A DNA stretch of 64,000 nucleotides. Source: Chryseolinea soli (GTDB lineage: Bacteria; Bacteroidota; Bacteroidia; Cytophagales; Cyclobacteriaceae). Where the stretch lies: NCBI RefSeq assembly GCF_003589925.1, contig NZ_CP032382.1:5952001-6016000 (forward strand), in the 5' to 3' direction. A program made the position numbers and the translations under genes. Positions 44,419 through 54,884 of this stretch are shown here, one piece after another (position 1 is the first letter of the stretch; each line of letters begins with the position of its first letter). A model generated the notes under the pieces. The model was not told the DNA's origin and did no database searches. It saw only the letters and a list, made by a program, of their open reading frames with translations.

Positions 44419-46482
44419 ATGAAAAAACTAGCACATGTTGTCCTCGCAGGGGTTGCCCTCGCTGCGGTGTCCTGTTCTACAAAGAAAGCGGAAGAAGACA
44501 AGCTCCCCGAGGGGGTGGGCATCAACCTTTCGTACGTAGACACGACCGTGCGTCCCCAGGATGACTTTTTCAAGTATGTGAACGGCGGTTGGATTGCCAA
44601 AACCAACATTCCCGCCGATCAAGGTCGCTGGGGCTCTTTCAACGAGCTTCGTGAATACAATAACGACGTGGTATTGAAAGTGTTGAAGAAAGCCGCCGAA
44701 AACACGCAGCTCTATCCCGAAGGCACCGATCAGCGCAAAGCTTCCGATTTCTATTCCATCGGCATGGACTCTACCTTGGCTGAGCGCGTGGGCATCACAC
44801 CCATTAAACCGATCCTGGCCCAGATCGAAGCTATCAAATCCAAAAACGACATTCAGGCCTATCTGGTGGAGGATGTGCTCACCGGCGGTGGGGCCTTCTT
44901 CGGTCTGGGTATTTTGCCCGATCTGAAAAACAGCAAAAAAATGGGCGCCTACCTGGGTTCGGGTGGCATTGGCCTGCCGGAACGCGACTATTATCTGAAA
45001 GACGACGCGAAGTCCAAAGAGACGCGCGAAAAGTACAAGGAATACCTGACCAAGCTTTTCACGCTGGCGCTCGTGTCCGACACCAAAGCGAAAGCCGATG
45101 CTGCCACCGTGCTGCGCCTGGAAACCGATCTGGCAAAGGCCACACTCAGCAAAGAAGACAGCCGCAACCCGGTGAAGCAATACAACCCCCGGACGGTGGC
45201 AGAGCTCACCAAACTAACGCCCTCCATAAACTGGAAAGCCTATTTTCACGGGCTGAACGTGCACGAAGACACGATCATCGTGACCGAGCCCGAGTTCATG
45301 AAGGCCTACGAAAAGATCGTGAACACCTACAAGATCGATGACATCAAAACCTATTTGAAAGCGGCCTTACTGCGCGGCTCGTCCCCTTTCTTGAACCACG
45401 ATTTTGTGGATGCCTCCTTTGAATTCAACACCAAATACCTTCGCGGCACCGACAAGATGCGTCCCCGCTGGAAGCGCGTATTGGATGTTACGGACAGCTA
45501 CCTCGGCGAAGCCATGGGCAAGCTCTACGTAGACGAAGCCTTCCCACCGGAAGCCAAGAAAAAGGCCCTGGAAATGGTGGAAAACATCAAATTGGCCTTT
45601 GCCGACCGTATCAACAGCCTCGACTGGATGTCGGATTCCACCAAGAAAAGCGCGTTGCACAAGCTGAGCACGTTTACCGTGAAGATCGGCTATCCCGACA
45701 AATGGCACGACTATTCGAAGCTGACCATCGAGAAGGCCCCTGAAAAAGCCTCCTACTTTGGCAATGCCCTGGCCGCTTCACGCTTCCAGGTGATCGAGCA
45801 GATCGAGAAACTGGGCAAGCCGGTCGACAAGACCGAGTGGCAAATGACGCCCCAGACCGTGAATGCCTACTACAACCCGCTCTTCAACGAGATCGTTTTC
45901 CCCGCCGGCATTCTGCAGCCCCCGTTCTATGACTATCGCGCCGACGAGGCCGTGAACTACGGCGGCATCGGTTCGGTGATCGGCCACGAGATCTCCCACG
46001 GCTTCGACGACCAGGGCAGCCAGTTCGACGCCGACGGCAACCTGAAAAACTGGTGGCAGAGCGTTGACCTGGACAAATTCCAGGGCAAAGGCAAAGCCTA
46101 CGCAAAGCAGTTTGATAAATACGAACCGCTGCCAGGCGTGTTTGTGCAAGGCCAATTCACGCTGGGTGAAAACATCGGCGACCTCGGCGGCCTCGCGGTG
46201 GCCTATGAAGGCCTGCAGCGTTTCTATAAAGACCACAAGAAACCCGGCCCCATTGACGGGCTCACACCGGAACAGCGCTTCTTCATGTCGTGGGGCACCA
46301 TCTGGCGCACCAAGTACCGCGACGAAGCCCTGCGCACCCAAGTGCTCACCGACCCCCACTCTCCGGGTATGTATCGTGCCAACGGTCCACTGTCGAACTT
46401 CGAACCTTTCTATAAAGCTTATGATGTGAAGGAAGGTGACAAGATGTTCAGACCGGATAGTGCGCGTGTGAAGATCTGGTAA
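44419..46482 (+). CDS. M13-family zinc metalloendopeptidase (neprilysin/PepO-like), lipoprotein
   Basis: This 687-aa lipoprotein has a signal ending in lipobox VSC (VVLAGVALAAVSCSTKKAEED). The N-terminal M13 domain follows (LSYVDTTVRPQDDFFKYVNGGWIA). The C-terminal catalytic domain carries the zinc motif HEISH in IGHEISHGFDDQGSQFD (His523, Glu524, His527) and the downstream Glu in ENIGDLGGLAVAYEG. The substrate-binding NAYYNP segment (VNAYYNPLFNEIVFPAGILQ) is intact, and the end matches the family CXXW-like terminus (here KIW). It should cleave peptides on the periplasmic or cell-surface side. It is monocistronic, with a terminator-like hairpin at 46497. Confidence 0.95.
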   Translation: MKKLAHVVLAGVALAAVSCSTKKAEEDKLPEGVGINLSYVDTTVRPQDDFFKYVNGGWIAKTNIPADQGRWGSFNELREYNNDVVLKVLKKAAENTQLYPEGTDQRKASDFYSIGMDSTLAERVGITPIKPILAQIEAIKSKNDIQAYLVEDVLTGGGAFFGLGILPDLKNSKKMGAYLGSGGIGLPERDYYLKDDAKSKETREKYKEYLTKLFTLALVSDTKAKADAATVLRLETDLAKATLSKEDSRNPVKQYNPRTVAELTKLTPSINWKAYFHGLNVHEDTIIVTEPEFMKAYEKIVNTYKIDDIKTYLKAALLRGSSPFLNHDFVDASFEFNTKYLRGTDKMRPRWKRVLDVTDSYLGEAMGKLYVDEAFPPEAKKKALEMVENIKLAFADRINSLDWMSDSTKKSALHKLSTFTVKIGYPDKWHDYSKLTIEKAPEKASYFGNALAASRFQVIEQIEKLGKPVDKTEWQMTPQTVNAYYNPLFNEIVFPAGILQPPFYDYRADEAVNYGGIGSVIGHEISHGFDDQGSQFDADGNLKNWWQSVDLDKFQGKGKAYAKQFDKYEPLPGVFVQGQFTLGENIGDLGGLAVAYEGLQRFYKDHKKPGPIDGLTPEQRFFMSWGTIWRTKYRDEALRTQVLTDPHSPGMYRANGPLSNFEPFYKAYDVKEGDKMFRPDSARVKIW

Positions 46483-46496
46483 GCGAAATTCATTTG

Positions 46497-46543
46497 AACC
46501 GCGCCTCCGCGCTCGTCGAAGCCTTAGCGAAGGTGAGGCGGTT
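46497..46543 (+). terminator. Terminator-like hairpin after the M13 peptidase gene
   Basis: AACCGCGCCTC at the left and GAGGCGGTT at the right pair with a small bulge, with an inner CGCT/AGCG stem, followed by TTTTAAATTTTTTT. It lies 15 nt after the stop. Confidence 0.6.
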
Positions 46544-46565
46544 TTAAATTTTTTTCACGCCGAGT

Positions 46566-46595
46566 TTGTAATAAACCGATAACTCACTATTATTG
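46566..46595 (+). promoter_or_regulatory. Candidate promoter for bTHX and possibly the trp operon
   Basis: A -33-like TTG (46566-46568) and a -7-like TATTATTG (46588-46595; one mismatch to TAnnTTTG) are 19 bp apart, the usual Bacteroidota spacing. It lies 23 nt before the bTHX start. Only 15 nt separate bTHX from trpL, so this may also drive the trp operon. Confidence 0.4.
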
Positions 46596-46618
46596 CCCTC
46601 GCAAAGAGCAACCATAAC

Positions 46619-46798
46619 ATGGGAAAAGGAGATAAAAAGTCGAAAAAAGGAAAGATCTGGAGAGACTCTTACGGAGTATCCCGCAACAAAAAAGCCCTGA
46701 AGGCAAAATTGAAAAGAACGGCTTCTAAGAAGCCCGTAACCGCGGAAGCCGCTGGTGAAGCAGCAGCAAAACCGAAAAGAACAACGACTAAAAAATAA
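46619..46798 (+). CDS. Small ribosomal subunit protein bTHX
   Basis: This 59-aa, very basic protein begins MGKGDKKSKKGKIWRDSYGV, the hallmark start of the Bacteroidota 30S protein THX (compare MGKGDKKTKKGKI in relatives). It continues with SRNKKALKAKLKRTASKK and an Ala/Pro/Lys tail. THX sits in a cavity at the top of the 30S head and stabilises rRNA. It is too short for most gene-length cut-offs. It is preceded by a candidate promoter and followed after 15 nt by the trp leader peptide, so the two may be co-transcribed. Confidence 0.85.
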   Translation: MGKGDKKSKKGKIWRDSYGVSRNKKALKAKLKRTASKKPVTAEAAGEAAAKPKRTTTKK

Positions 46799-46813
46799 GG
46801 AGTCGAAAATCAA

Positions 46814-46870
46814 ATGATGAAGTTTACAAACATTGCATGGTGGTGGCACAGATCGGGATCCGATATGTGA
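46814..46870 (+). CDS. trpL: trp operon leader peptide with three Trp codons
   Basis: An 18-codon frame reads MMKFTNIAWWWHRSGSDM and ends at TGA (46868-46870). Three consecutive TGG codons are at 46838-46846. It is placed 94 nt upstream of trpE, and its RNA overlaps the alternative hairpins described in the attenuator entry. Three Trp codons in 18, directly before a terminator and the trp genes, is diagnostic of ribosome-stalling attenuation. A start at the second ATG is equally possible. Confidence 0.88.
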   Translation: MMKFTNIAWWWHRSGSDM

Positions 46871-46935
46871 ACAGCCTTGTTATGACTTTTAAGATAAGCC
46901 GAAGGCCTGCTGTTCACAGCAGGCCTTCTTTTTTT
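46847..46935 (+). promoter_or_regulatory. Tryptophan transcription attenuator (1:2, 2:3, 3:4 hairpins)
   Basis: Three alternative stems are seen. 1:2 is CACAGATCGG (46847-46856) with CCGATATGTG (46860-46869): nine pairs and one mismatch, loop GAT. 2:3 is TGTGAACAGC (46866-46875) with GCTGTTCACA (46909-46918): ten perfect pairs. 3:4 is GAAGGCCTGCTG (46901-46912) with CAGCAGGCCTTC (46917-46928), loop TTCA, then seven T: the terminator. The strands are shared, so the forms exclude each other. A ribosome stalled on the Trp codons (46838-46846) would cover strand 1 and free strand 2 for the antiterminator. A ribosome reaching the TGA at 46868 would cover strand 2 and let the terminator form. This is the classical trp attenuation logic. 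Confidence 0.88.
46901..46935 (+). terminator. Intrinsic terminator of the trp attenuator
   Basis: A perfect 12-bp stem with a 4-nt loop is followed by seven T, ending 29 nt before the trpE ATG at 46965. Confidence 0.93.
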
Positions 46936-46964
46936 GTCCAAACTCAATCCATAGCTATACGCCG

Positions 46965-48368
46965 ATGAAGTACAAATTGAAAACCTACTCCAAAAAACTG
47001 CTGGCCGACACGCTCACGCCCGTGAACATCTACCTGAAGCTGCGCGATGTGTATGCCGGAAGCATTTTGCTGGAAAGCTCCGATTATCACGGTCATGAAA
47101 ACAGCCTCTCCTATATCTGTTGCGACCCCATCGCTTCGTTCGAAGTAAAGGACAACGCCGCCGAATACCGTTATCCCGACGGCAAAACGGAGAAGGAAAC
47201 CATTACCCGTGTCGGCCAGGTCACCACCATGTTGGAGAATTTCAAGAACGCCATCGAACCCGACAACATTCCCTCGGCCTATGCCAATTGCGGCTTGTTC
47301 GGCTACATCGCCTATGATGCCATCCGTTTCTTTGAGGACGTGAAGATCGAACGGAAAGAGCAAAGCATCCCGGATGTGTTGTATAAGTTGTATCGCTATG
47401 TGATCATCGTGAACCATTTCTCCAACGAGTTGAGCTTGTATGAGCATTGCTACGCCGGCAAAGGCGAATGCCACAGCACGCTGGACCGCGTGGAGCAGAT
47501 CATTTTCAGCAACAAGTTCTCGACCTACAAATTTTCCCTCACCGATGGCGAGACCTCTAATGTGGACGACGAAGAGTTTGTGAAGATCGTGGAGAAAGGG
47601 AAGGAGCATTGCTATCGTGGCGATGTGTTTCAGATCGTGTTGTCGCGCCGGTTTACCACCGGTTTCAAAGGCGATGAGTTTAATGTGTATCGCGCGCTGC
47701 GTTCCATAAACCCGTCGCCTTATTTATTTTATTTTGATTATGGAAGCTTCAAGCTGTTCGGTTCGTCGCCGGAAGCGCAGTTGCAGGTGAGCCACGGCAA
47801 GGCTCACATTTACCCCATCGCCGGAACCTTCAGGCGCTCGGGCAACGACCAGGAAGACGCCGCCATCGCGGAGAAGCTGGCCGCCGATGAAAAGGAAAAT
47901 GCCGAACACGTGATGCTGGTCGACCTGGCCCGCAACGACATGAGCCGCAATGCCGAACACGTCACCGTGGAGGTATTCAAAGAGATCCAATTCTATTCGC
48001 ACGTGATCCACCTGGTTTCGAAGGTGACGGGTACGTTGAAGAAAGATACGTCTGTTGTGAACATTGCAGCCGATACATTTCCGGCGGGAACCCTTTCCGG
48101 AGCTCCGAAGCACATGGCCATGACGTTGATCGACAAGTATGAAAACATCAACCGCAGTTTCTACGGCGGCGCGATCGGCTTTATGGGATATGACGGTTCT
48201 TTCAACCATGCCATCATGATCCGCACCTTCCTGAGCCGTGAAAACAAATTGATCTACCAGGCCGGTGCCGGGGTGGTGTCCAAGTCGAATTCCGAGAGCG
48301 AGTTGCAGGAAGTGAACAACAAGCTTACGGCATTGCGCAAGGCAGTTTTATTGGCAGAGAAAATCTAA
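46965..48368 (+). CDS. trpE: Anthranilate synthase component I
   Basis: This 467-aa enzyme makes anthranilate from chorismate with ammonia from TrpG. The feedback-inhibition motif LLESSDYHGHENSLSYI (about 31-47) indicates tryptophan-sensitive TrpE rather than PabB. The chorismate-binding domain shows CYRGDVFQIVLSRRF, NPSPYLFYFDYGSFKLFGSSPE, YPIAGTFRRSGNDQED (short pieces) and the active-site end DTFPAGTLSGAPKHMAMTLID and YGGAIGFMGYDGSFNHAIMI. It is the first structural gene after the attenuator. TrpG follows 50 nt later. Confidence 0.96.
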   Translation: MKYKLKTYSKKLLADTLTPVNIYLKLRDVYAGSILLESSDYHGHENSLSYICCDPIASFEVKDNAAEYRYPDGKTEKETITRVGQVTTMLENFKNAIEPDNIPSAYANCGLFGYIAYDAIRFFEDVKIERKEQSIPDVLYKLYRYVIIVNHFSNELSLYEHCYAGKGECHSTLDRVEQIIFSNKFSTYKFSLTDGETSNVDDEEFVKIVEKGKEHCYRGDVFQIVLSRRFTTGFKGDEFNVYRALRSINPSPYLFYFDYGSFKLFGSSPEAQLQVSHGKAHIYPIAGTFRRSGNDQEDAAIAEKLAADEKENAEHVMLVDLARNDMSRNAEHVTVEVFKEIQFYSHVIHLVSKVTGTLKKDTSVVNIAADTFPAGTLSGAPKHMAMTLIDKYENINRSFYGGAIGFMGYDGSFNHAIMIRTFLSRENKLIYQAGAGVVSKSNSESELQEVNNKLTALRKAVLLAEKI

Positions 48369-48418: not shown

Positions 48419-48985
48419 ATGAAAATTCTTGTTCTCGATAATTACGATTCGTTTACCTATAATCTCGTCCACATCCTGCGGGCGTTGAACTATTCCCTTG
48501 ATGTTTTCAGGAACGACAAGATCGCGTTGGAAGCGGTGAAAGCTTATGATAAGATCTTGTTGTCGCCAGGCCCGGGCATCCCCGATGAAGCCGGCATCAT
48601 GAAACAGGTGGTGCGCGAATATGGTCCGACCAAAAGTATCCTGGGCATTTGTCTCGGACATCAGGGTATTGGCGAAGTCTATGGAGCAACCTTATTCAAC
48701 ATCCCCAAAGTGCTGCACGGTGTAACGTCGGTGGCCAGGGTGACCGACCGCAACGAATATCTTTTCAAGAACGTGCCCGACACGTTCCAGGCCACGCATT
48801 ACCATTCCTGGGCCGTGAAACCCGAAACCCTCACCGACGACCTGCGCGCCACCGCCACCAACGACGACGGGCTCATCATGGGACTAACCCACGTGCGCTA
48901 CGACGTGAAAGGTCTGCAATTCCACCCCGAATCCATCATGACGCCGGAAGGACCCAAGATGGTGGAGAATTGGTTGAAACATTGA
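48419..48985 (+). CDS. trpG: Anthranilate synthase component II (glutamine amidotransferase)
   Basis: This 188-aa class I glutamine amidotransferase supplies ammonia to TrpE. The N-terminus is ILVLDNYDSFTYNLVHILR. The oxyanion strand has LLSPGPGIPDEAG, the nucleophile Cys is in ILGICLGHQGIGEVYG, and the catalytic His-Glu is in LQFHPESIMTPEG. HYHSWAVKPE is also typical. It could double in folate synthesis as PabA; no pab gene is adjacent. It lies in the trp operon, 46 nt before trpD. Confidence 0.95.
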   Translation: MKILVLDNYDSFTYNLVHILRALNYSLDVFRNDKIALEAVKAYDKILLSPGPGIPDEAGIMKQVVREYGPTKSILGICLGHQGIGEVYGATLFNIPKVLHGVTSVARVTDRNEYLFKNVPDTFQATHYHSWAVKPETLTDDLRATATNDDGLIMGLTHVRYDVKGLQFHPESIMTPEGPKMVENWLKH

Positions 48986-49031: not shown

Positions 49032-50018
49032 ATGAAAGAAATTCTCAACGAACTCATCGACCACCGCTCGCTCACCAAAGAGTCGGCGAAGAAAGTGCTG
49101 GTCGACCTGGCGTCCGGAAAATATAATCCCAGCCTGACCACCGCCTTCATGACCGTGTACATGATGCGCAGCATTACGGTGGACGAACTGCAGGGCTTTC
49201 GCGATGCCATGCTGGAACTTTGCGTGCCGGCAAAATTTGATCAGCCCGTGATGGATGTTTGCGGCACCGGCGGCGATGGCAAGAATACCTTTAACATGTC
49301 GACGTTGTCCTCCTTTGTGGTGGCGGCGGCAGGACAGCCCGTTGCCAAGCACGGCAACTATGGCGTATCCTCGGCATGCGGATCGTCAAACCTGCTGGAA
49401 TATTTTGGCTACAAATTCACGAACGACATCGACGAACTGAAGCGCAGCCTTGACCGGGCAAACATTTGCTTTATGCACGCCCCGCTGTTTCATCCCGCCA
49501 TGAAGAATGTGGCGCCTATACGCAAGGAATTGGGCGTGAAGACATTTTTCAACATGCTGGGTCCGATGGTAAACCCGGCCTTTCCCACGCGACAGCTCGT
49601 GGGTGTGTTCAACCTGGAGCTGGCGCGGCAATACGGGTATTTATATCAGAACACAGAAAAAGATTTTGTCATCCTCCATTCCATCGACGGCTACGATGAA
49701 GTGTCGCTGACGGGGCCGTTCAAATTCTTTTTCAACGGCGGCGAAAAGATGCTGGAGCCGGCCGACCTTGGGTTGCCCCGCCTCACGCACGACGATATTC
49801 GCGGGGGCAGCACGGTGGAGGAATCCGCGAAGGTGTTTATGAACATTTTGGAAGGGAAAGGCACGCCCGCGCAAGTATCGGCCGTGACGGCCAATGCGGC
49901 GATGGCATTGTACACGGGTCATCAAAAAGAAGGCTTGCCGCGTGCCGTGGAACGTGCCACCGAAGCGCTCAAATCCGGAAAGGCGTTGCAGTCTTTCAAA
50001 AACCTGATGGGAAAATAA
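49032..50018 (+). CDS. trpD: Anthranilate phosphoribosyltransferase
   Basis: This 328-aa enzyme transfers phosphoribose from PRPP to anthranilate. The PRPP/Mg2+ site is in MDVCGTGGDGKNTFNMSTLSS (pieces: GTGGDGKNTFNMST). It continues KHGNYGVSSACGSSNLLEYFG and FMHAPLFHPAMKNVAPIRKELG, and MLGPMVNPAFPTRQLVGVF. The length and order match TrpD. TrpC begins 13 nt downstream. Confidence 0.96.
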   Translation: MKEILNELIDHRSLTKESAKKVLVDLASGKYNPSLTTAFMTVYMMRSITVDELQGFRDAMLELCVPAKFDQPVMDVCGTGGDGKNTFNMSTLSSFVVAAAGQPVAKHGNYGVSSACGSSNLLEYFGYKFTNDIDELKRSLDRANICFMHAPLFHPAMKNVAPIRKELGVKTFFNMLGPMVNPAFPTRQLVGVFNLELARQYGYLYQNTEKDFVILHSIDGYDEVSLTGPFKFFFNGGEKMLEPADLGLPRLTHDDIRGGSTVEESAKVFMNILEGKGTPAQVSAVTANAAMALYTGHQKEGLPRAVERATEALKSGKALQSFKNLMGK

Positions 50019-50031
50019 AACAAAGACCGAC

Positions 50032-50829
50032 ATGAACATTTTAGACGAGATCATCGCCTATAAAAAGAAAGAAGTTGCCGATCGCAAGGAGCTTTACCCG
50101 GTGAAATTGCTGGAGCAAAGTCACTACTTTGCCACGCAGCCGGTATCATTAAAGAAATACATTCAGCGCGACGACCTTTCAGGAATCATTGCCGAGATCA
50201 AACGCAAGTCGCCTTCAAAAGGAGTGATCAATCCGCACGTGTCGGTGGAGCGTACATCCATTGGCTATATGCAAGCCGGCGCTTCCGCGTTGTCGGTGCT
50301 GACCGATACGAATTTCTTTGGCGGCAGCAACGACGACCTGATGACGGCGCGCAAATTTAATTTTTGCCCCATCCTTCGGAAGGATTTTACCGTCGATGAA
50401 TACCAGATCGTGGAGGCCAAGTCGATCGGCGCCGACGCGATATTGCTCATCGCCGCCGCCTTGCCACCGGCCCGCGTAAAAGAACTCGCGGCGTTTGCAC
50501 ATTCCTTTGGACTGGAGGTTTTACTGGAAGTGCACAACGAAGAAGAACTAAACGCCAACCTCGACGCCCAAGCCGATCTGATCGGTGTAAACAACCGGAA
50601 CCTGAAAACTTTTGAGCTCAGCGTGGAGATCTCCAAACAACTGGCCAAGCGGATCCCCGACACCGTAGTGAAAGTCTCGGAGAGCGGCATCGAATCCGTG
50701 GCAACGATTCTTGAATTGAAGACCTACGGCTACGAAGGATTTTTGATGGGGCAGAATTTTATGCAATACAGCCGTCCCGAAATCGCCGCGAAGGAATTTA
50801 TACACGACCTAAAAAAAGCAACGCACTGA
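50032..50829 (+). CDS. trpC: Indole-3-glycerol-phosphate synthase
   Basis: This 265-aa TIM-barrel enzyme closes the indole ring from CdRP. Signature pieces are GIIAEIKRKSPSKGVINP (catalytic Lys and Glu), VLTDTNFFGGSNDDL, PILRKDFTVDEYQIVEA, DLIGVNNRNLKTFELSV and VSESGIESVATI. Its stop TGA overlaps the trpF start ATG by one nucleotide (TGATG at 50827-50831), so the two are translationally coupled. Confidence 0.96.
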   Translation: MNILDEIIAYKKKEVADRKELYPVKLLEQSHYFATQPVSLKKYIQRDDLSGIIAEIKRKSPSKGVINPHVSVERTSIGYMQAGASALSVLTDTNFFGGSNDDLMTARKFNFCPILRKDFTVDEYQIVEAKSIGADAILLIAAALPPARVKELAAFAHSFGLEVLLEVHNEEELNANLDAQADLIGVNNRNLKTFELSVEISKQLAKRIPDTVVKVSESGIESVATILELKTYGYEGFLMGQNFMQYSRPEIAAKEFIHDLKKATH

Positions 50830-51467
50830 TGGCCCGGCTCGCGGACATAAAGCTGAAGATCTGCGGCATGCGGGATGCCGAAAACATCCAGGCAGTAACT
50901 GCGTTGTCGCCACAGTACATGGGCTTTATCTTTTACCGGAAGTCGCCGCGGTTTGTCGGCGATGATTTTGTGATGCCGGCCATTTCGCCGGGTATAAAGA
51001 AAGTGGGCGTCTTTGTCAATGAGACCACGGAAAACATCCTGCGCATCGCTTCCCGGTACGACCTCACCCTAATCCAACTGCACGGGCATGAAACGCCGGA
51101 GCAATGCCGCGATCTGAAAGCCAAGGGACTGAGTGTCATCAAAGTGTTTTCCGTGGGGGAAGATTTTGATTGGAGCACCGTGCAGCCTTATAAATCGTTG
51201 GCCGATTTTTTTCTTTTCGACACCAAAGGCAAATACTACGGCGGCAATGCCCAGGCGTTCGATTGGTCGTTGCTCCAAAAATATGACCAGGAAATTCCAT
51301 TCTTCCTGAGTGGTGGACTTTCGCCGGAAAATATCGATGACGTGGACCGGTTAAAAGGCATGAATCTTTATGCGCTGGATGTAAACAGCGGTGTGGAGGA
51401 CAGCCCCGGTGTGAAGAATGCGTCAAAAATTGAATCTGTTCTTGAGAAATTAAAATCATTGAAGTGA
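50829..51467 (+). CDS. trpF: Phosphoribosylanthranilate isomerase
   Basis: This 212-aa TIM-barrel enzyme isomerises PRA to CdRP. The N-terminal catalytic Cys is in LKICGMRDAENIQAV. It continues KVGVFVNETTENILRIASRY, LIQLHGHETPEQC, KVFSVGEDF and the phosphate-binding end FLSGGLSPENIDDV with LDVNSGVEDSPGVKNASKI. It starts inside the trpC stop codon and is followed by trpB after 15 nt. Confidence 0.95.
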   Translation: MARLADIKLKICGMRDAENIQAVTALSPQYMGFIFYRKSPRFVGDDFVMPAISPGIKKVGVFVNETTENILRIASRYDLTLIQLHGHETPEQCRDLKAKGLSVIKVFSVGEDFDWSTVQPYKSLADFFLFDTKGKYYGGNAQAFDWSLLQKYDQEIPFFLSGGLSPENIDDVDRLKGMNLYALDVNSGVEDSPGVKNASKIESVLEKLKSLK

Positions 51468-51482
51468 TCTAAACCCGAAAGC

Positions 51483-52664
51483 ATGAAATACACTGTAAAC
51501 GAAAAGGGATACTACGGCAAATTTGGAGGCGCCTATATTCCCGAAATGCTTTACCCCAACGTGGAAGAGCTGCGCACACGCTACCTGGATATCATTTACG
51601 AGGAAGGGTTTCAAAAAGAGTTTCACAAATTGCTCCGCGACTACGTGGGACGGCCCACGCCGCTCTACCTGGCGAAACGTCTTTCTGAGAAATATGGCGC
51701 CACGATCTATCTGAAACGCGAAGACCTCTGCCATACCGGCGCGCACAAAGTGAACAATACGATTGGTCAGATCCTGTTGGCAAAACGCCTCGGCAAACAA
51801 AAGATCATTGCTGAAACCGGCGCCGGACAACACGGTGTGGCTACGGCGACGGTATGCGCGCTGATGGGAATGGAATGCATTGTCTACATGGGCAAAATTG
51901 ACATGGAGCGGCAGCGTCCTAACGTAGAGCGCATGCGCATCCTCGGGGCCACTGTAGTTCCCGCACTTAGCGGCAGCATGACTCTGAAAGATGCTACCAA
52001 TGAAGCCATGCGGCACTGGATCAACAACCCCACCGATACACACTACATCATTGGATCGGTAGTAGGACCTCATCCTTATCCCGACATGGTGGCTCGCTTT
52101 CAGTCGGTGATCAGCGAAGAAATGAGAAAGCAATTGCAGGAAGAGATCGGCAATCCATACCCCGACTATGTGTTTGCCTGCGTCGGAGGCGGTAGCAACG
52201 CTGCGGGAGCGTTCTATCATTTCCTGGACGATGAACACGTCACACTGGTAGCATCTGAAGCTGCTGGCAAGGGAGTCGACAGCGGCGAATCCGCGGCGAC
52301 TACGGCGCTTGGAAAACCCGGTGTGCTTCACGGCAGCAAAACGATATTGATGCAGACCGAGGATGGTCAAGTGGTGGAACCCTATTCCATCTCGGCCGGG
52401 TTGGATTACCCCGGCATCGGGCCTATACACGCCCACTTGTTTGATGTAGGACGTGTAAAGTTCGTGAGCGCCACCGACGACGAAGCCATGAATGCGGGGC
52501 TGGAGTTGAGCCGGATGGAGGGCATCATTCCTGCCATCGAATCGGCCCATGCGCTGGCTGCCTTGAATCAATTCACCTTTGAAAAGGACGACGTGGTGGT
52601 GGTCAATTTATCGGGCCGTGGCGACAAGGATTTGGAAACCTATATCCGTTGGGGAAAATATTAA
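51483..52664 (+). CDS. trpB: Tryptophan synthase beta chain
   Basis: This 393-aa PLP enzyme condenses indole with serine. The N-terminal segment [21 protein letters not shown] is typical of TrpB1. The PLP Lys89 sits in [20 protein letters not shown]. The ammonium/phosphate loops are [20 protein letters not shown] and [15 protein letters not shown], and the C-terminal [14 protein letters not shown] is conserved. trpA begins 49 nt downstream. Confidence 0.97.
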
Positions 52665-52713: not shown

Positions 52714-53502
52714 ATGAAAAACAGGATCAAAGACCTTTTCGCAAGCGGAAAAGGAAATATATTGTCAGTGTTCTATACGGCAGGCTTCCCCACGTTAGAC
52801 AGCACGGCGGCTATTGCCACAGCCCTGGAGAAAGGCGGTGCGGACATCATCGAGATCGGCATTCCCTATTCTGATCCGGTGGCCGACGGACCGACCATCC
52901 AGGAAAGCAATAAAGTGGCACTGGAGAATGGCGTAACGTTGCCTAAAATACTAGAACAAGTAAAGCTCATCCGCAAGACGGTTAAAATTCCCATTATCCT
53001 GATGGGCTATGTAAATCCCGTCATGCAATACGGCATCGAGCGCTTTGCTAAAGACGCCGCTACGGCTGGGGTAGACGGTGTAATTTTGCCCGATCTGCCG
53101 ATGGACGCATTTCTGGCCGAATACAAAACCACCTTTGAGGCCGCCAACCTCAGTAACACGTTCCTGATCTCGCCCACCACCTCAGAGGAGCGCATTCGCA
53201 AAATCGACAACGAGACAGACGGGTTCATCTATGCAGTTTCAGCCTCCAGCATCACGGGCGCTCGCGGCGAGTTCGCCGATACACAGCTGCAATATTTTGA
53301 CCGCTTGAAGAAGATGAAGTTGAAAAATCCTTTCCTCATCGGCTTTGGCATCTCCGATCATACCACGTTTGCTAAAGCATCGTCCTATGGTGCTGGGGCC
53401 ATTGTGGGCAGCGCGTTTATCAATTTGCTCAAGAAATCCACCAACGTCGCCGCCGACAGCGAGGCGTTTGCCATCTCACTTAAAAATAACGCCAAGTCAT
53501 GA
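52714..53502 (+). CDS. trpA: Tryptophan synthase alpha chain
   Basis: This protein is about 262 aa from the ATG at 52714 (MKNRIKDLFASGKGNILSVF). A longer in-frame reading starts inside trpB and has no homology. The catalytic Glu is in DIIEIGIPYSDPVADGPTIQ and the Asp in AGVDGVILPDLPMDAF. FLISPTTSEERI, YAVSASSITGARGEF and the phosphate end IVGSAFINLLKK also match. It cleaves indole-3-glycerol phosphate and channels indole to TrpB. Its stop overlaps the aroF start (ATGA). Confidence 0.96.
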   Translation: MKNRIKDLFASGKGNILSVFYTAGFPTLDSTAAIATALEKGGADIIEIGIPYSDPVADGPTIQESNKVALENGVTLPKILEQVKLIRKTVKIPIILMGYVNPVMQYGIERFAKDAATAGVDGVILPDLPMDAFLAEYKTTFEAANLSNTFLISPTTSEERIRKIDNETDGFIYAVSASSITGARGEFADTQLQYFDRLKKMKLKNPFLIGFGISDHTTFAKASSYGAGAIVGSAFINLLKKSTNVAADSEAFAISLKNNAKS

Positions 53503-54509
53503 TCATTCAATTGCAACCGTCGATCGCAACGGCCGACAAAGAAGCGATCATCGCGAAGAGCAAAGCCCTCGGTTATAAGACCACCGAAGTAAAGACGCAA
53601 GAGCATGTTTACCTGGTGGGCATCGGCAAAAAAGAATTCGACATCCGCCTGCTGGGACACATGGCAGGGATAGCCGACATCCACCGCGTTTCGGACGACT
53701 ACAAACTGGTGTCGCGCAAATGGAAAGTAGACCGTACCCATCTCGATCTGGGTGACGGCGTGATCATTGGCGACGGCACCTTGTCCATCATGGCCGGCCC
53801 GTGTTCGATCGAAAACGAGGCGCAGGTGCAGCAAACCATCGACCACCTGGTGGCGCAAGGCGTGCGCATTATGCGGGGCGGTGTTTTTAAACCCCGCAGT
53901 TCACCCTATGCCTTTCGCGGGCTTGGGGTGGACGGCCTGAAGATGTGGCATACGCTGGCGCGCAAGGCAGGCATGAAGATCATTAGCGAGGTGATGCAGG
54001 TGAGCCAGATCGCGGAGATGCATGATTATGTGGATGTGTTCCAGGTGGGCGCGCGCAACACGCAGAACTTTAACCTGCTCGATGAATTGGGCCGGGTAGA
54101 CAAAGCCGTGATGATCAAACGCGGCATCTCAGGCACGATCGAAGAATTGTTGTACTCCGCCGAATACGTTTTTGCCGCCGGCAACGAAAAGCTTTTGCTG
54201 TGCGAACGAGGCATCCGCACCTATGAACGCGCCAGCCGCAACACCCTGGATATAAACGCCATCCCGATCCTCAAGGAGAAGACACATTTGCCGGTGATCG
54301 CCGACCCGTCGCACGGTATCGGCATCCGCGAGTATGTCGAGCCCGTGGCCCTGGCCGCCGTCATGGCGGGCGCTGATGGTGTGATCTATGAAACCCACCA
54401 AAAACCGGAAGAGGCCGCTTCGGATGGACAACAAACGCTGGACTTCAAGGAATCGGAAAAACTTATCCGCAAGCTCCGAAAGGTGTATGAACTGCGTGAA
54501 AATTTTTAA
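53499..54509 (+). CDS. aroF: 3-deoxy-7-phosphoheptulonate (DAHP) synthase, type I beta
   Basis: This 336-aa enzyme catalyses the first step of the shikimate pathway. An N-terminal ferredoxin-like regulatory domain (about 1-70; IIQLQPSIATADKEAIIAKSK) precedes the TIM barrel. Conserved barrel pieces are IMAGPCSIENEAQVQQT, RGGVFKPRSSPYAFRGLG, VFQVGARNTQNFNLL, MIKRGISGTIEEL, LLCERGIRTYERASRNTLDI and ADPSHGIGIREYV. Feedback control by the N-terminal domain is likely. Its placement at the end of the trp operon (overlapping trpA by ATGA) puts chorismate supply under the same attenuator, a common arrangement in Bacteroidota. Confidence 0.95.
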   Translation: MIIQLQPSIATADKEAIIAKSKALGYKTTEVKTQEHVYLVGIGKKEFDIRLLGHMAGIADIHRVSDDYKLVSRKWKVDRTHLDLGDGVIIGDGTLSIMAGPCSIENEAQVQQTIDHLVAQGVRIMRGGVFKPRSSPYAFRGLGVDGLKMWHTLARKAGMKIISEVMQVSQIAEMHDYVDVFQVGARNTQNFNLLDELGRVDKAVMIKRGISGTIEELLYSAEYVFAAGNEKLLLCERGIRTYERASRNTLDINAIPILKEKTHLPVIADPSHGIGIREYVEPVALAAVMAGADGVIYETHQKPEEAASDGQQTLDFKESEKLIRKLRKVYELRENF

Positions 54510-54533: not shown

Positions 54534-54884
54534 ATGACCGTCTACGGCATAAAAAATTGCAACACCGTGAAAACCGCGATGGACTGGCTGAAGCAGCACA
54601 ACGTCGCCGTCGATTTTCACGATTACAAAACCAAGGGCATCACGGCCGTCAAACTAAAAGAGTGGAGCAAGCAAGTAGGGTGGGAGAGCCTCGTGAACAA
54701 ACGCGGCACCACCTGGCGCCAACTCGACGAAACCGAACAGGCCAAGGTGACCAACGAAAAAGCAGCCATCGAATTGATGACGGAAAAGACGAGTGTCATC
54801 AAACGCCCGCTCATCGAGAAGGACGGCAAAGTAGTGGCACTAGGCTTCGACGAAGCTGCCTATGTAAAAGCGTTTAAAAAGTAG
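54534..54884 (+). CDS. ArsC/Spx-family thioredoxin-fold protein, YffB-like
   Basis: This 116-aa protein has the thioredoxin-like fold of the arsenate reductase family (MTVYGIKNCNTVKTAMDWLK). The single Cys in the KNCNTVK loop is placed as in YffB. KRGTTWRQLDETEQ and VIKRPLIEKDGKVVALGFDEAAY are the family segments. It lacks the extra Cys residues used by true arsenate reductases and is not near ars genes, so arsenate reduction is unlikely. YffB proteins are thought to be glutathione-related but have no settled role. It lies 24 nt after aroF and could be the last gene of that transcript; it is convergent with the kinase gene. Confidence 0.85.
   Translation: MTVYGIKNCNTVKTAMDWLKQHNVAVDFHDYKTKGITAVKLKEWSKQVGWESLVNKRGTTWRQLDETEQAKVTNEKAAIELMTEKTSVIKRPLIEKDGKVVALGFDEAAYVKAFKK

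Follow-up and report, generated by a model that had tools for sequence, protein, structure and literature searches.

How is the tryptophan operon of Chryseolinea soli regulated, and which transcript carries its regulatory leader? The window, i.e. the whole analysed stretch of 64,000 nucleotides from a contig of 8.24 Mb, contains on its plus strand trpE (46965-48368), trpG (48419-48985), trpD (49032-50018), trpC (50032-50829), trpF (50829-51467), trpB (51483-52664) and trpA (52714-53502), all assigned by NCBIfam. A DAHP synthase gene for the first shikimate step (53499-54509; NF006421 above cut-off) follows on the same strand and overlaps trpA by 4 nt. A 116-aa open reading frame, also on this strand (54534-54884), begins 24 nt past the DAHP-synthase gene and may close the operon. 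Upstream of trpE lies bTHX, encoding the 30S ribosomal protein THX (46619-46798, plus strand; TIGR04560, E 4.5e-13), a single-copy gene with one match across the genome. In enterobacteria, the trpL region comprises a leader peptide with Trp codons, four RNA strands and a terminator before trpE. An initial annotation of the locus had recognised this architecture of ribosome-stalling attenuation between bTHX and trpE. With a probability of about 0.9, as judged from sequence comparisons, we conclude that a ribosome-mediated transcription attenuator controls trpEGDCFBA and the DAHP-synthase gene. Leader-peptide attenuation as such is a known kind of mechanism.

The leader peptide and its competing hairpins

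The leader frame trpL (46814-46870, plus strand) starts 15 nt past the bTHX stop codon and encodes MMKFTNIAWWWHRSGSDM in 18 codons. It contains the tandem Trp codons TGG TGG TGG at 46838-46846 and ends with TGA at 46868-46870. Directly behind the Trp codons, strand 1 (46847-46856) pairs with 46860-46869 to form hairpin 1:2 (CACAgATCGG-gat-CCGATaTGTG, 46847-46869) with nine pairs. Strand 2 (TGTGAACAGC, 46866-46875) includes the leader stop codon, and strand 3 (GCTGTTCACA, 46909-46918), which forms the antiterminator, is its exact reverse complement over ten pairs. The intrinsic terminator 3:4 (46901-46935) consists of a 12-bp stem at 46901-46928 with a loop of 4 and seven T at 46929-46935, the last of which lies 29 nt before the ATG of trpE. 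Direct reading thus bore out the initial annotation, in which the frame with its three Trp codons was correct to the base, both alternative pairings of strand 2 were real and the perfect terminator was rightly placed. The predicted energies were -8.3 kcal/mol for 1:2, -13.9 kcal/mol for 2:3 and -22.7 kcal/mol for 3:4. Among 18 terminator-like matches between 46400 and 55000, terminator 3:4 had the highest number of pairs and of G-C pairs, tied solely by its own minus-strand reading. Moreover, the 146-nt region 46800-46945 folded better than all of 200 dinucleotide shuffles (z -3.63).

A stalled ribosome was modelled by masking the RNA through the third Trp codon and over an assumed ribosome footprint of 15 nt. 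When strand 4 was absent, the predicted fold was 2:3, and with the ribosome placed at the stop codon it was 3:4. Including strand 4 in the stalled-ribosome RNA gave 3:4 as the equilibrium fold. Antitermination therefore requires that 2:3 forms first.

According to the mechanism that we propose, RNA polymerase would start upstream of bTHX and transcribe bTHX followed by the leader. When charged tRNA-Trp is available, the translating ribosome would clear the three Trp codons and halt at the TGA inside strand 2. Strand 2 would then be masked or bound to strand 1, 3:4 would form, and termination near 46935 would leave a short bTHX mRNA. When charged tRNA-Trp is scarce, the ribosome would stall on the Trp codons and cover strand 1. 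Strand 2 would pair with strand 3 while strand 4 is still to be transcribed, which would allow read-through into trpEGDCFBA and the DAHP-synthase gene. Repeated Trp codons in a short open reading frame and an intrinsic terminator before the first structural gene, two marks of this class of attenuators, are present at the locus. The third, an exclusive antiterminator that stalling is predicted to expose, emerges from the complementarity, the folds and the exchange of terminator arms described below.

Conservation and complementarity among relatives

We searched 176 regions upstream of trpE for ATG frames that span 8-40 codons and contain WW or WxW, and compared them with 880 dinucleotide shuffles and with 526 real segments that were antisense or located further upstream. 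Such a frame was found in 167 of the 176 regions, as against 15 shuffles and 11 real controls. Frames with WWW occurred in 143 regions, in none of the shuffles and in one real control. A WW or WxW frame together with a terminator was present in 166 regions but in only one sequence of each control set. Adding an uninterrupted antiterminator of at least six pairs left 131 regions, one shuffle and no real control; in 35 of the 166 loci with leader and terminator the scan found no uninterrupted six-pair antiterminator.

Leader and terminator precede trpE in 90 of 93 loci of the same family and in 60 of 62 loci of other families, which belong mostly to the same class and include two that are kin at the phylum level only (L125 and L134). 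For other classes the figure was 14 of 19 in a small sample (20 loci taken, one dropped). A set of named loci, among them those from Flavobacterium, Pedobacter, Sphingobacterium, Hymenobacter, Algoriphagus, Draconibacterium and an uncultured Chitinophaga, yielded both elements in 75 of 80 cases, three of these loci being repeats from the other groups. The orientation of each locus for the open reading frame scan was set by tblastn. The initial annotation had named the conservation of tandem Trp codons as a check, and relatives do keep them: 77 of the 93 family loci have WWW and 91 have WW or WxW. Among 235 distinct systems, the longest Trp run was three in 195, two in 23, one in 12 and four in five. 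The leader peptides diverge widely between clades, with the Trp run and the hairpins persisting. Within clades the residues before WWW are kept, and some of their codons are silently changed (Ala GCA/GCT; Ile ATA/ATT).

The same annotation had proposed that the competing strands should change together. Of the 160 cells that 1:2 and 3:4 comprise in the window and seven close relatives, 99.4% were paired; for helix 1:2 the figure was 98.4%. Two-sided changes affected 2 of the 20 pairs of 1:2 and 3:4 in this small sample, a value reached by 52 of 500 shuffles. The key strands, 2 and 3, do not vary at all in this set, which is why it shows only weak covariation. Therefore, we compared own with swapped pairings over the 235 systems. 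The stretch between the Trp codons and the terminator was paired with the system's own terminator arm and with that of every other system. The mean energy was -16.3 kcal/mol for own, -11.2 kcal/mol for swapped and -10.8 kcal/mol for reversed own arms, in a set of related loci whose relatedness was only partly controlled. The gain of the own pairing amounted to 5.1 kcal/mol over all swaps and to 5.4 kcal/mol over dissimilar arms, and in 96% of systems the own pairing beat the median swap. It ranked among the best 5% in 34% of systems against all arms and in 46% against dissimilar arms, where its median rank was 0.056. The strands thus change together beyond swapped controls, and with the conserved Trp codons this supports the ribosome-stalling architecture that had been assigned to the locus.

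Linkage to bTHX, putative promoter position and doubled leaders

With a search pattern that included MGRGD starts, 23 of 256 scanned regions were found to carry bTHX at a distance of up to 1000 nt upstream. In 13 of these 23 loci, the window included, the distance from the bTHX stop to the leader start is -1 to 15 nt. In a TrpE tree of 44 rows, a branch with support 100/99 separates these 13 coupled loci from the rest. Of the ten others, L083 has 20 nt between bTHX and leader and the remaining nine have 37-197 nt; this gap contains a readable TAnnTTTG box in five loci, namely L018, L052, L058, L069 and L088. Upstream of bTHX, a TAnnWTTG box lies at a distance of 25-32 nt in 11 of the 13 coupled loci. 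In the window, a promoter-like site of the Bacteroidota type spans 46565-46595 on the plus strand and consists of TTTG (46565-46568), a spacer of 19 nt and TATTATTG (46588-46595). The leader is probably a second cistron that is co-transcribed with bTHX. Judged from sequence, the simplest history would be a single capture by bTHX together with loss of the leader's own promoter.

Among 222 loci without close bTHX coupling, 153 have a TAnnTTTG box upstream of the leader, compared with 8.5 expected from mononucleotide shuffles, and in the other 69 no such box was found near the leader. Between the end of the box and the leader ATG lie 4-36 nt (median 11), and 117 of the 153 box-bearing loci also have TTG near -33. 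For F. johnsoniae, transcription is taken to start 4-5 nt past the box, and leaders exceed 10 nt in 87% of transcripts (PMC6847099). In 90 of the 153 loci no more than 14 nt separate the end of the box from the ATG, and the F. johnsoniae rule then predicts a 5' leader no longer than 10 nt. Therefore, the trp leader peptide is often predicted to lie almost at the 5' end of the transcript.

A tandem of Trp leaders, with a terminator behind each of the two, was putatively identified in 11 of 254 loci (L024, L047, L069, L081, L083, L088, L089, L191, L250, L252 and L257). The mechanical test for serial attenuators was passed by 13 loci; L135 and L254 were left out of the eleven because one member lies far upstream with a weak hairpin, so that they look like chance. 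Draconibacterium and a Prolixibacteraceae bacterium (L250, L252 and L257) share the sequence IWLPWWGLL in the first peptide. Two serial switches should steepen the response. Tandem attenuators have been described for Salmonella mgtCBR, where two regulatory leader frames also stand in series, although they do not respond to tryptophan and are not one sensor used twice (PMC3641672).

We give even odds to a broader history of these leaders. Across the phylum, the ancestral form would have been a leader peptide near the 5' end of the transcript, which was doubled in several lineages. In the clade of the window, the leader would have been captured by the bTHX unit, with bTHX ribosomes re-initiating on it and one hairpin serving both as bTHX terminator and as trp switch. 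If this capture is true, trp transcription would scale with ribosome synthesis times tRNA-Trp shortage. The coupled form would make it possible to test directly whether a leader peptide can be supplied with ribosomes by the cistron before it.

Alternatively, the hairpin might be nothing but the bTHX terminator, the Trp-rich frame might be accidental and trpE might be transcribed from its own promoter further down. With some 100 nt between the end of bTHX and the hairpin, the position of the latter fits such a role. We reject this explanation as extremely improbable because leader and terminator recur together in loci without bTHX within 1000 nt; moreover, the shuffled sequences contained no WWW frame at all. 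Attenuation could also be real with a leader promoter that lies inside the bTHX gene, so that bTHX and trp would form distinct transcription units, as is apparently the case in relatives. The boxes upstream of so many uncoupled leaders are in line with this, as are the 20-197 nt that separate bTHX and leader in the ten other bTHX-bearing loci. In the coupled clade, however, hardly any gap is left, and a TAnnWTTG scan through bTHX itself, which covers this sequence type only, gave an internal match in just 1 of the 13 loci. We consider an internal promoter unlikely and favour co-transcription from upstream of bTHX.

The signal, too, could differ from tRNA-Trp charging. Free tryptophan might act on the leader peptide within the ribosome as it does for TnaC, which controls a degradative operon. 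The conserved residues before WWW, kept within clades despite some silent codon changes, would agree with a nascent-peptide sensor, but across clades it is the Trp run and the hairpins that persist, whereas the peptides differ widely. Moreover, control of a degradative operon has the opposite sense (PMC8429421), and we regard such a sensor as very improbable. Other known regulators of tryptophan genes were searched as well. Neither TrpR (PF01371) nor TRAP (PF02081) was found over cut-off in 60 genomes of the family, sub-threshold matches to TrpR being present in 1 of the 60, and a T-box (RF00230) had no match in the genome of C. soli. Control by TrpR, TRAP or a T-box was rejected as these genes and this element were not found in those searches. 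We thus retain a sensor of tRNA-Trp charging as the preferred reading.

Comparison with known attenuators and further leaders in the genome

The attenuator shares with enterobacterial trpL (RF00513) the short leader with tandem Trp codons, the exclusive pairings 1:2, 2:3 and 3:4, the stop codon near strand 2 and the intrinsic terminator before trpE. The enterobacterial anatomy proposed initially holds for the attenuator elements but not for the layout, which is altered here with the leader as a second cistron behind bTHX, a point that the initial annotation had not made. A further difference is that no TrpR was found. Likewise, the Rfam model Trp_leader was not among the six matches up to E 10 in the region 46000-48000, where the best match, to Thr_leader, scored 25.5 bits and so stayed below the gathering score of 55.

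Ribosome-mediated attenuation outside Proteobacteria has been described for actinobacterial amino-acid leader peptides, i.e. in a different phylum (PMC1262725), and is likewise stated in PMC2965389. In 2010, the latter knew of no case outside Proteobacteria and Actinobacteria besides its own from Firmicutes and the atypical ermC leader. Attenuator motifs have been considered to be possibly of gamma-proteobacterial origin (PMC3766115). In our comparison, the trp form was found upstream of trpE at 150 of 155 loci from the same family and from other families, most of which belong to the same class. Within the phylum, strong clues to leader-peptide attenuators before amino-acid biosynthesis operons were reported for Flavobacterium psychrophilum, with 5' elements named upstream of pheA and hisG (PMC9723704). 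Neither trp nor tryptophan occurs in the main text of that paper. In the part of the literature covered, we found no description of trp attenuation in Bacteroidota or of a bTHX-linked leader, which is not a claim of absence from print. On the basis of PMC3766115, PMC2965389, PMC9723704 and the missing Trp_leader match, we rate the core as known; the novelty lies in the bTHX-coupled leader, for which no separate promoter could be recognised. Since an attenuator works only with a ribosome close behind RNA polymerase, transcription-translation coupling becomes testable in Bacteroidota, a phylum without Shine-Dalgarno sequences (PMC6847099).

Similar leaders were seen at other amino-acid genes of C. 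soli. hisG is preceded by the leader MRNAINNSNHHHHHVKHTMRGTAVS with five His codons and by a strong terminator (L260:1189-1319), and we regard it as a candidate his attenuator. In front of a prephenate-dehydratase gene we observed a Phe/Tyr-rich leader, MTINRTSFYFYYFFSTPAGL, with a terminator (L261:1325-1455) and with a TATCTTTG box upstream. A terminator and an Ile/Leu/Val-rich leader, which reads MASLFLLLLIVVIVVKPAGAMVI when an inner ATG is taken as the start, precede an operon containing ilvD; this leader is located on the minus strand of L262, at 254-325 of the reversed locus. The neighbours of ilvD, named by reading, look like a branched-chain aminotransferase and an acetolactate synthase.
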